A stretch of 64,000 nt of DNA. Source: Candidatus Methanomethylophilus sp. 1R26. Lineage in GTDB: Archaea > Thermoplasmatota > Thermoplasmata > Methanomassiliicoccales > Methanomethylophilaceae. The position numbers and the translations under genes were made by a program. Shown here in pieces: positions 54,233 to 57,359 of the stretch; the first letter of the stretch is position 1; each line of letters opens with the position of its first letter. The notes under the pieces were generated by a model. The model ran no database searches and was not told where the DNA came from. It worked only from the letters and a program-made list of their open reading frames with translations. The stretch spans positions 1 through 64,000 of the forward strand of contig NZ_LOPS01000027.1 of NCBI RefSeq assembly GCF_001481295.1, written 5' to 3'.

Positions 54233-55240
54233 TCAGTTCTGTTTTTCATTCAGACTCGGATCTGTCGCGGAAGTTGCACTTTCGGAGCTGACCTTCGGCT
54301 CTTCCTTGCTCTTGAACATGCTGAGGCCGAATCCCTTCTTGGGCTTCTTCCTGCTCACGATGCCCGCGTCGTCGGACATCACGTTCTGGTTCTCCAGGTA
54401 ATCGAGGATGTCCCGCCTGAGCTTGGTGAACTCCGGAGACGCTCTGTCCCTGGGTCTTTCCCACGGGACGTCGATGACCTTGTAGACCGTCGAAGGCCTC
54501 TTGGTCAGGATGACCACGCGGTCGGACAGGAACAGCGCCTCGTCGACGGAGTGGGTGATGAAGATGATGGTCCTCTCGCTGTGCATGAGGATCCTCGTCA
54601 GCTGCTCCTGCATGATGTTCCTGGTCTGGGCGTCGAGCGCTCCGAACGGCTCGTCCATGAGGGTCACCGCCGGGTGCATGACCAGAGCGCGGGCGATGCC
54701 CACCCTCTGCTTCATGCCTCCGGAGAGCTCATAGATGCGGGAGTCCGCGAAGTCCTCCAGGCCGACGGCCTTGATGTACCGCATGGCCCTCTCCTCGCGT
54801 TCCGCCTTGGGGACGCCTGCGACCTCCATCCCGAACTCGACGTTCTGCTTCACGCTCCTCCAGGGGAAGAGCGCGAAGTCCTGGAACACCATCCCGCGGT
54901 CGGAGCCCGGCGCGGTGCACGGCTTCCCGCCCATGGTGATGGTCCCGGATGTGGGCTGCAGGAGCCCCGCGATGCATCTGAGGATGGTTGTCTTCCCGCA
55001 TCCTGACGGACCTACGATGGAGACGAGCTCCCCCTTCTTCACGTCAAGGCTGAAGTTCTCCACCGCGGTGGTCTCCGACTCGTCGGTCTTGTACACCACG
55101 TGCAGGTCCTTGATGGACATCAGGGTCTCGCCCTCGGGGATGTCCTTGTAAAGCAGGTCGGTGCGGTCCGCTCTCACACGGTCCCTGGACCTGTACCTCG
55201 GGCCTCTGTCTTTATCCCGTCGTTGGCAGCCATCAGACAT
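54233..55240 (-). CDS. SsuB/TauB/NrtD-type ABC ATPase
   Basis: Walker A GPSGCGKTT, Q-loop MVFQDFALFPWRS, signature LSGGMKQRVGIARAL, Walker B VTLMDEPFGALD and switch His IFITHSVDEALFLSDRV are typical of importers for sulfonates, taurine, nitrate or pyrimidines. The domain proper starts at MSIKDLHVV (55108), but the frame is open back to ATG 55240, which overlaps the permease stop; I choose the longer form with low confidence. A C-terminal extension (KKPKKGFGLSMFKSKEEPKV) of about 40 residues is basic and unusual. Confidence 0.85.
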   Translation of the reverse strand: MSDGCQRRDKDRGPRYRSRDRVRADRTDLLYKDIPEGETLMSIKDLHVVYKTDESETTAVENFSLDVKKGELVSIVGPSGCGKTTILRCIAGLLQPTSGTITMGGKPCTAPGSDRGMVFQDFALFPWRSVKQNVEFGMEVAGVPKAEREERAMRYIKAVGLEDFADSRIYELSGGMKQRVGIARALVMHPAVTLMDEPFGALDAQTRNIMQEQLTRILMHSERTIIFITHSVDEALFLSDRVVILTKRPSTVYKVIDVPWERPRDRASPEFTKLRRDILDYLENQNVMSDDAGIVSRKKPKKGFGLSMFKSKEEPKVSSESATSATDPSLNEKQN

Positions 55241-56083
55241 CCATCCCCATTCTCTTCGATATGTACTTGTGTATGTAGTCGGCGAGCCCGGAGGTGAGGA
55301 TCCCCAGCACTGCGATGATGACGATCGCGGCGTAGGCGGAAGGCCAGAAGCCTGCTGTCGCCTGCTCGGAGAGGTAGAACCCGATGCCTCCGAGAGGAGA
55401 GGCGTACAGCTCCGCGGCAACGATGCACATCCAGCCGATGCCGAGCCCGACCTTGATCCCGTTCATGATGTAGGGAACGGTGGACGGTATCATGACCTTC
55501 ACGAAGATCTGGGCGTCGGAGGCCCCCAGCGTCTTGGAGGCATCTATGAGGTTCGGCTCGATCTTCGAGACCCCGAAGATGACGTTGGTCAGCAGAGGGA
55601 AGAAGATACCGACGAAGACGACCAGCATGGGCCCGGTCTCGTAGTCGATGGCGACCATGAAGATAGCGCCCATGCGATGGGCGCGATGGGCCTGAGGACC
55701 TCGATCATCGGAGTGGCGAACTCCCTCAGGGTAGCGAACTTGCCGAGGACCAGGCCCAGGGGTATGGACACCACCAGGGCGAGGATGAATCCCTCCAGGT
55801 AAGTGGACAGCGATGAGCTGATGTACGACCACATGGACTTCCCGCCGGACATGGTGTCCCCGTTGCTGTAGAAGTCCACAAGGGCGTCCCAGGTGTCCGC
55901 GGGGTTGGGGATGGTGTACGAGTTTGCGATGATGGATATGACCCACCAGGCCTCCACGAACATCACCAGCGATATCGCGGTGATCAGGAGCTTCCTTCCT
56001 GCCCGGTGGTATTTGTTGTGTTTGTCGTATTTGAAATGCAGGACCGCGTCCGCGATCCCGCCTTCCCTGAACTCCAGTGCCAA
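55233..56083 (-). CDS. SsuC/TauC-type ABC permease (frameshifted)
   Basis: About 283 residues, six helices. The N-terminal helix (LLITAISLVMFVEAWWVISI) and the EAA loop region (DASKTLGASDAQIFVKVMIP) identify the family. One base is missing in CCC at 55669-55671 (plus strand); the restored join reads IAPIAWGAIFMVAIDYETGP. It starts ten bases after the binding-protein stop and its stop overlaps the ATPase start. Confidence 0.87.
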
Positions 56084-56093
56084 TCTATCGCCT

Positions 56094-57359
56094 TCAGACC
56101 GTCACGAGCTGCCCGTTGACGCAGGTTATGGTCGCAGGGGGAGCTCCCATGAACCCGAAGTCCGCAGAGCCGTTCTGCATGGCGACTGCAACGCCGGCGC
56201 CGTTCGACTCGTTGACCTGCTGGATGTTGATCCCGTAGTGTGTGAAGAATCCCTGCGCCACTCCGACCTGGAGGGCGATCTGGTGGATGTCTCCGGAGAT
56301 GACGGCGACCGTCACGGTGGTGCTGGTCCCGTTGTAGCTGCCGTAGCTCTCCGCCTCATGCAGGTACGACTCGTCGACGAACCTGTTGGCGAACTGCACA
56401 GAGTTGGAGAAGCCGAGGTCGGACATACTGTACCTGAGGGTGCTTGAGTTCGCCTCGACGATGTCGGCGATATCGTACTTAAGCTGCGTCAGGGTCCCGT
56501 CCTCGTCCGCGTAGACGTAGGTGATGTTGCTGAGGGCGTCCTTGATGTAGGTCTCGCTGAGTCCGGTGGAGCTCACGCAGGTGCTCACCAGTGCATTGTA
56601 ATTATCGGACGAAGTGTCGCTGAGGGCCGCATTGACCCAGTTGACCGATTCGATGTATCCGGCGAGGAACCTCTCGGTGACGTCCTGGTGGCTGTTCACA
56701 TAAGAGGAATAACCCGCGAGGACGCAGCAGGTGTGCCCGGGGAAGAAGTAGTTGGTGAGACCCAGGCCCTGGAATGCCGTGCCTTCGGCATCGATGACTG
56801 CAGAGTACTGAGGTTCCCATATGATCCCGATGTCCGGATGGGGAGTGTCGTTCATGATCTTGCTGGCATTGGTGAACGTCGAGATGTACGCCACCTGGCT
56901 GGATGACACCGATGTCCCGGATTCGTACAGCACGAACGAAAGCCCCATCGAGGTAACTATCTGGTTCATCTGAACGTGCTGGATGGAGGTGTTTCCCGGG
57001 GTTCCGCATATGAGGCCTCCCCAGGCAGCCGCATTATCCGAACTGACAGAATATACTAGATTTCCCTCAGAGTCCGCAGAGGGAGTGTAGAAAGGAGTAC
57101 CGTTCCTGTAGGGGACGTTCACGCTGTATGTTACCTCTGAACCGTCGACGGTGGCGGTGAACGTCGTACTGACAGTGGATTCCACTTCGTCCTTGTCAAT
57201 GTATATGCCCGATCCCTCGGTGTTCACACGTGCCAATATGTTGTAGACGTTGTTAGAGCCGTTGTCATCGTTGATGGATTCATCGTAGACGATGATGCCG
57301 GCCATCGCGCCCATGATGGCGACGACGATGATGGCGGTGGACCAAAATTTAGCGTTCAT
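56094..57359 (-). CDS. NMT1/SsuA-type substrate-binding protein, circularly permuted
   Basis: 421 residues, one intact frame. An N-terminal anchor (FWSTAIIVVAIMGAMAGIIV) precedes a periplasmic binding domain. The order is abnormal. The segment that normally opens this fold, VAVISGDIHQIALQVGVAQG through ADFGFMGAPPATITCVNGQL, is at the C-terminus (about residues 348-421). The chain begins with the strand that should follow it, YNILARVNTEGSGIYIDKDE, then CGTPGNTSIQHVQMNQI. End and start join into a continuous canonical domain. It heads a three-gene importer. The ligand may be a sulfonate, nitrate or pyrimidine-like compound. Confidence 0.85.
   Translation of the reverse strand: MNAKFWSTAIIVVAIMGAMAGIIVYDESINDDNGSNNVYNILARVNTEGSGIYIDKDEVESTVSTTFTATVDGSEVTYSVNVPYRNGTPFYTPSADSEGNLVYSVSSDNAAAWGGLICGTPGNTSIQHVQMNQIVTSMGLSFVLYESGTSVSSSQVAYISTFTNASKIMNDTPHPDIGIIWEPQYSAVIDAEGTAFQGLGLTNYFFPGHTCCVLAGYSSYVNSHQDVTERFLAGYIESVNWVNAALSDTSSDNYNALVSTCVSSTGLSETYIKDALSNITYVYADEDGTLTQLKYDIADIVEANSSTLRYSMSDLGFSNSVQFANRFVDESYLHEAESYGSYNGTSTTVTVAVISGDIHQIALQVGVAQGFFTHYGINIQQVNESNGAGVAVAMQNGSADFGFMGAPPATITCVNGQLVTV

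Follow-up and report, generated by a model that had tools for sequence, protein, structure and literature searches.

Can the domain of an ABC importer receptor naturally begin with what should be its middle and end with what should be its beginning, or does such an order betray a scrambled assembly? The question is raised by a gene in the 64,000-nucleotide stretch of archaeal DNA that was analysed here (Candidatus Methanomethylophilus sp. 1R26, contig NZ_LOPS01000027.1, positions 1 to 64,000; hereafter 'the window'). The initial annotation had proposed that the segment opening SsuA/NMT1-type binding domains sits at the C-terminus of the encoded protein, that joining the end of the chain to its start restores the canonical order, and that an intact frame, a correctly placed membrane anchor and the permease and ATPase genes that follow speak against an assembly break. 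It had also called a natural permutation of an importer receptor unexpected.

A receptor with exchanged segments

The features of the locus are collected in Table 1. The receptor frame (57359..56094) is indeed intact, with 421 codons for amino acids and no internal stop, the N-terminal hydrophobic helix lies where the anchor had been placed, and the first ∼75 residues of the canonical domain come last in the chain. A β-rich insert (residues 56–112; window positions 57024–57194) directly follows the new N-terminus; it is longest in the window receptor, shorter in most other receptors of the same segment order, and left in large part without a match by the canonical profile described below.

Table 1. 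Features of the receptor locus in window coordinates.
Feature	Coordinates	Strand	Basis or remark
Circularly permuted SsuA/NMT1-type substrate-binding protein, 421 aa, arrangement A (anchor + N-M-C)	56094..57359	-	ORF, profile matches, AF2, conspecific copy
N-terminal membrane anchor and acidic linker, residues 1–36 (helix 3–29)	57252..57359	-	Sequence, AF2 secondary structure
Segments N+M, residues 38–345: canonical fourth strand onwards, second lobe, return to first lobe; canonically last	56325..57248	-	Canonical-only profile 91–327 on residues 97–337
Segment C, residues 346–421: canonical domain start (three strand-helix units, GDIHQ and GAPPA motifs), here C-terminal	56097..56324	-	Canonical-only profile 2–80 on residues 348–417; NMT1_2 start; strands/helices 347–415
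ABC permease (BPD_transp_1, SsuC/TauC/SaoP-like)	55233..56083	-	Two frames in window via one-base deletion near 55667
ABC ATPase (NrtCD/TauB/SsuB/SaoA-like)	54233..55233	-	One-base deletion near 55206, close to start

The exchange is evident from profile matches. Positions 21–72 of the 252 positions of Pfam profile NMT1_2 (PF13379) match residues 363–415, that is, the start of the profile matches the end of the protein (25.6 bits; cut-off 24.7). NMT1_2, NMT1 (PF09084; 20.8 bits, cut-off 20.5) and the NCBIfam model SsuA_fam all match the C-terminal ∼60 residues only, each with its own beginning. When the C-terminal end is joined to the N-terminal start, as the initial annotation had suggested, the PF13379 match becomes stronger (25.6 to 32.8 bits) and longer (profile positions 22–105) and crosses the join, and PF09084 reaches 23.4 bits on the rotated protein. 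Five canonical-order homologues alone were also made into a profile of 327 positions, which matches the window receptor twice and in swapped order, with positions 91–327 on residues 97–337 (E = 8e-38) and positions 2–80 on residues 348–417 (E = 6e-11). Judged by these profiles, the exchanged order is far beyond chance. Unpermuted relatives are known (the canonical orthologues L081, L084, L088, L101 and L130), and both segments of the window receptor are homologous to theirs in exchanged order. The window receptor does not have the order of secondary-structure elements found in canonical SsuA/TauA/NMT1-type proteins (type II, cluster F), and it is a permuted relative of these proteins rather than a canonical member. 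A sequence search of the PDB with the raw protein gave no match, which is unsurprising for a permuted and diverged sequence, and a single-domain score computed over all rotations of the sequence gave no discrimination.

The AF2 model of the window receptor, built with 30 native sequences, is a single confident body (pLDDT 91.2, pTM 0.87) in which the C-terminal segment is predicted to form three strand-helix units and the N-terminal body to open with the next strand. Judged by its confidence scores and secondary structure, the prediction called for in the initial annotation indicates one fold, and a separate partial domain at the C-terminus was not seen. Foldseek comparison of this model with the PDB gave as best matches CmpA (bicarbonate receptor; E = 2e-4) and SsuA (sulfonate receptor), with a TM-score of ∼0.46 that is in keeping with the use of an order-dependent aligner and is not proof of the fold.

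Four circular orders in one orthologous family

For comparison with its homologues, the window receptor was divided into segments N (residues 38–191), M (192–347) and C (348–421), and profiles of these segments were mapped onto the homologous proteins. Four circular orders are found: (i) order A, N-M-C, that of the window; (ii) order B, M-C-N, in seven genomes of two genera (L031–L037); (iii) order D, N2-M-C-N1, which is cut inside segment N and is the commonest order in the other families of the same taxonomic order and in more distant genomes; and (iv) the canonical order, C-N-M, of the five orthologues named above. In window numbering, the breakpoints lie at ∼338–346 (canonical), 421|38 (A), 190–195 (B) and 147–152 (D), and in the AF2 model of the window receptor all four fall between secondary-structure elements. 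Orthologues read from each order carry an anchor, either a hydrophobic helix or a lipobox-like sequence, at the N-terminus. These proteins constitute one orthologous family in Thermoplasmatota and their relatives, in which the termini moved several times while the operon and the binding-site residues remained fixed. For a form with order B (L179), AF2 yields a model of fair confidence (pLDDT 82, pTM 0.82), whose Foldseek search returned weak type II matches only and was left out of the evidence; in the structure alignments of order B, the C1-N2 junction of natural tandem proteins (see below) was used to place the fragments.

Some homologues are found in other settings. In two A-order operons on contigs labelled as Rhodocyclaceae MAGs (L166 and L170), an archaeal-type permuted receptor stands beside genes that by eye look bacterial (fructose-bisphosphatase-like and PurU-like); a gut betaproteobacterium has probably acquired this receptor from archaea. 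A protein of 900 aa (L100:1-2700, minus strand) is a fusion of fibronectin-type-, PKD-like- and repeat-looking domains with a D-order receptor domain in which the Cys-Cys motif has been lost; this receptor domain was apparently recruited into a surface protein. Finally, three cytoplasmic-looking proteins (L139, L140 and L141) combine an N-terminal helix-turn-helix-like part with a receptor-like domain having a Cys-Cys motif (IPCC/YPCC); it is possible that these are transcription regulators sensing a related ligand.

Authenticity of the window's order

If the order had been scrambled in this draft genome, the permutation would be an artefact of assembly. The window assembly is 82.85% complete and consists of 50 contigs, and two one-base deletions lie near the receptor gene, all of which would favour such an explanation. 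However, a conspecific genome assembled in one contig of 1.77 Mb (G033) carries the receptor gene in the same order and at 99% identity, and the order is common to homologues from dozens of independent assemblies. A homologue is present in 91 of the 100 genomes sampled from the family, and the full-length homologues read from these genomes, a comparison that the initial annotation had recommended, are all permuted, mostly with the order of the window. A second, independent collection was scanned with an alignment of order A only, the profile alignment of all orders being too diverse, and yielded 34 loci, mostly in records named Methanomethylophilaceae/Methanomassiliicoccaceae or Thermoplasmata. 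Moreover, genomes consisting of one contig provide examples of orders A, B and D, of the canonical order and of tandem forms (G033, G041, G199, G111 and G043). We therefore reject the assembly artefact, to which the closed conspecific genome and the conserved order leave a practically negligible probability. The earlier conclusion that the gene does not span an assembly break is borne out, and in the genomes compared no sign was seen of a tandem duplication collapsed during assembly. The data support an SsuA/NMT1-type receptor whose circular permutation is natural, is maintained in an archaeal family and is seen in closed genomes.

The importer operon

The receptor-permease-ATPase gene order is shared by canonical, D, A, B and tandem orthologues, and the operon encodes a permease of SsuC type and an ATPase of SsuB type. 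Both of these genes do follow the receptor in the window, as had been reported, but in comparison with G033, where (at 98.9% identity to the window) both frames are open, one base is missing from each. The deletion at 55667 interrupts the permease frame and that at 55206 the beginning of the ATPase frame; they represent either assembly errors or recent decay. One may then ask if the receptor, although real and permuted, is encoded by a decaying gene and no longer serves import, its permease and ATPase being broken in this strain. The two deletions would agree with this, as would the degenerate copies found elsewhere in the family (L100 and the first copy of the doubled receptor L085). Yet the permease and ATPase frames of the closed conspecific genome are open, the site residues of the window receptor are intact, the operon is conserved across the family, and single-base deletions in draft assemblies are commonly errors, so that decay appears very improbable.

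In the methanogen family, the operon often adjoins or faces genes for a RACo/RamA-type corrinoid activator and for a very His/Cys-rich protein without Pfam match (L148, L153–L155, L164, L169, L171, L174, L176 and L177), a neighbourhood that hints at a connection with methyl or metal metabolism but is not seen in this window.

Tandem forms and the history of the rearrangements

The family also comprises double-length receptors, namely N-M-C-N-M-C proteins of 766–793 aa (L014, L015/L151, L021 and L172) and a doubled D form of 731 aa (L085). In 3 of the 3 tandems tested (L014, L021 and L085), a full canonical-order unit (profile positions 2–326) extends across the junction. A tandem chain that is cut elsewhere would yield other circular orders, as is needed by the model of permutation by duplication (PMC3320104). 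The halves of L014 have long identical stretches in common, and in the tree its two copies are sisters within one tandem clade, which suggests either homogenisation or gene conversion between the copies, or a repeated or fresh duplication. In L085, only the second copy retains the Cys-Cys and GAPPA-type motifs, which the first has lost; one half of this protein may be decaying or purely structural.

For the trees, all sequences were rotated to one order. Order B arose at least twice: it falls in two places, and a tree constrained to keep it as one group is worse by 141 log-likelihood units (p-AU = 3.9e-9). This rejection is conservative, since junctions specific to an arrangement would tend to draw like orders together. 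A grouping of all canonical forms with the canonical outgroup on one side is likewise disfavoured (p-AU = 0.0085, for a group named with the tree in view), implying that canonical and D orders interconverted, or that D arose, more than once, in either direction. The deep branches of the tree are weakly supported, and our main claim does not rest on the result for the canonical and D orders.

How, then, did the permuted orders come about? Half-trimmed intermediates were not found among the sampled loci, and neither B clade has the sampled tandem clade as its sister group in the tree, the deep branches of which are weak. The case for the tandem route accordingly rests on the fact that tandems exist, and not on a lineage followed through the tree. 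Fission of the receptor and re-fusion of its pieces is an accepted alternative model for circular permutation (PMC3320104). However, no split receptor gene was encountered among the homologues read, in which tandem double-length forms are present, and the operon context is the same in every order. We thus regard fission and re-fusion as rather unlikely, and consider, with a probability of roughly 0.88, the window receptor to be the membrane-anchored receptor of an SsuABC/TauABC-type importer, and a circular permutant from a repeatedly permuted family that was formed by tandem duplication and trimming. In a first step, the receptor part that follows the anchor would likely have been duplicated in tandem and in frame, giving a functional double-length protein; in a second, a 5' part of the first copy and a 3' part of the second would have been lost. 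In the chain as it now stands, the anchor is joined to the fourth strand of lobe 1, and the three strand-helix units that canonically precede this strand come last. Most likely, such a permutant would fold as an ordinary two-lobed receptor, close on a small ligand and dock on the adjacent permease.

It is tempting to go one step further and to speculate that the termini in this family are effectively mobile, with tandem fusion and re-trimming recurring in place, order B arising independently at the same loop, at least one lineage returning from a permuted to the canonical order, and the canonical forms of Methanomassiliicoccales being secondary. We offer this broader proposal tentatively, as a possibility to which we would give less than even odds.

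Conserved residues and candidate ligands

Near-invariant in every order are D357, H359, Q360, G387, N46, G49, S50, Q127, W181, H209, C211 and C212, and the corresponding D-x-H-Q and H-x-C-C motifs are absent from two SsuA-like outgroup proteins. Given its family resemblance (SsuA, TauA and SaoX) and its operon, the protein very probably acts as a receptor in ABC import. Taken by itself, the conservation of the two invariant motifs suggests that the ligand may be of the thiol, organosulfur or soft-metal kind.

Kinship with SsuA/TauA, and the presence of mcrA in the methanogenic hosts of the window's family, might suggest that the imported compound is coenzyme M, a sulfonate, destined for methanogenesis. 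Many hosts of order D and canonical forms, however, have the same site residues without a detected mcrA: the gene was not found in G219, G199, G206, G168, G158, G177, G237, G146, G284, G255 and G273, several of these genomes being incomplete. Coenzyme M is therefore an unlikely ligand for the whole family, and the ligand does not appear to be specific to methanogenesis, while import of coenzyme M by the A/B branch alone is possible. In a search for sulfopyruvate decarboxylase, nearly all matches were below the cut-off, and the controls matched in every genome.

Relation to known systems

Inferences of circular permutation usually build on a small number of isolated protein pairs. Here, one orthologous receptor in one conserved operon is found in canonical form, in three permuted forms and in two tandem registers across many genomes, including closed ones, and the model of duplication and trimming thus becomes directly testable with respect to breakpoints, intermediates and the cost to binding and docking. 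By implication, attachment of the membrane anchor at any of four different loops is compatible with a working ABC receptor. Furthermore, order-dependent annotation misses permuted receptors, as exemplified by the window's own genome, in which a search with Pfam NMT1 gave no match at E ≤ 0.001. No description of a permuted SsuA-like receptor was found in the literature searched, the coverage of which left out most subscription journals; a permuted substrate-binding protein (PMC4990184) and a multiply permuted enzyme family (PMC3320104) are already known.

The closest known systems are SsuA and TauA, which share with the receptor described here an operon having matching permease and ATPase types, and whose N-terminal residues correspond to its C-terminal end. 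The canonical orthologues match the respective models (TIGR01728, PF13379, PF09084) along most of their length; for L088, the values are E = 7e-35 for TIGR01728, E = 5e-27 and 95.7 bits for PF13379, and 46.8 bits for PF09084, and the nearest solved structures by sequence are a taurine-binding protein (6ssy) and SsuA (2x26). Scores against the NCBIfam models nevertheless stay under the curated cut-offs, the best one in canonical order being 120.7 versus 163.5 (TIGR01728). The Sec-assisted organometallic transporter SAO, which is described as rich in Cys/Sec motifs (PMC13188914), also bears a resemblance: of its subunits SaoX, SaoP and SaoA (NF040735, NF040733 and NF040729), the last two belong to the curated models that fit the permease part and the ATPase best, and SaoX matches canonical relatives at E = 3e-19. 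However, every score is far under the curated cut-off (for SaoX on canonical relatives, 69.6–75.2 versus 300), for which reason we rejected Sao as a functional assignment, and SaoX is not described as permuted.

That a permutation of such a receptor was unexpected has to be tempered, since a precedent has been published in another fold class. Tp0684 (MglB-2) from Treponema pallidum is a circularly permuted type I ('Type Ic') glucose-binding protein which, like the window receptor, is a natural permutation of an ABC receptor with an N-terminal tether and with the first three strands of the first lobe at the C-terminus (PMC4990184). Tp0684, however, has a type I fold, a sugar ligand and one described order, whereas the present family is of type II (SsuA-like) and displays three permuted orders along with canonical and tandem forms. 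For multiple circular permutations within one family, PMC3320104 points to DNA methyltransferases (citing Jeltsch 1999 and Bujnicki 2002), for which tandem or partially duplicated intermediates are documented there. These methyltransferases are intracellular enzymes, whereas the family described here consists of membrane-anchored receptors, encoded in a conserved three-gene operon and permuted at the same locus in related genomes.
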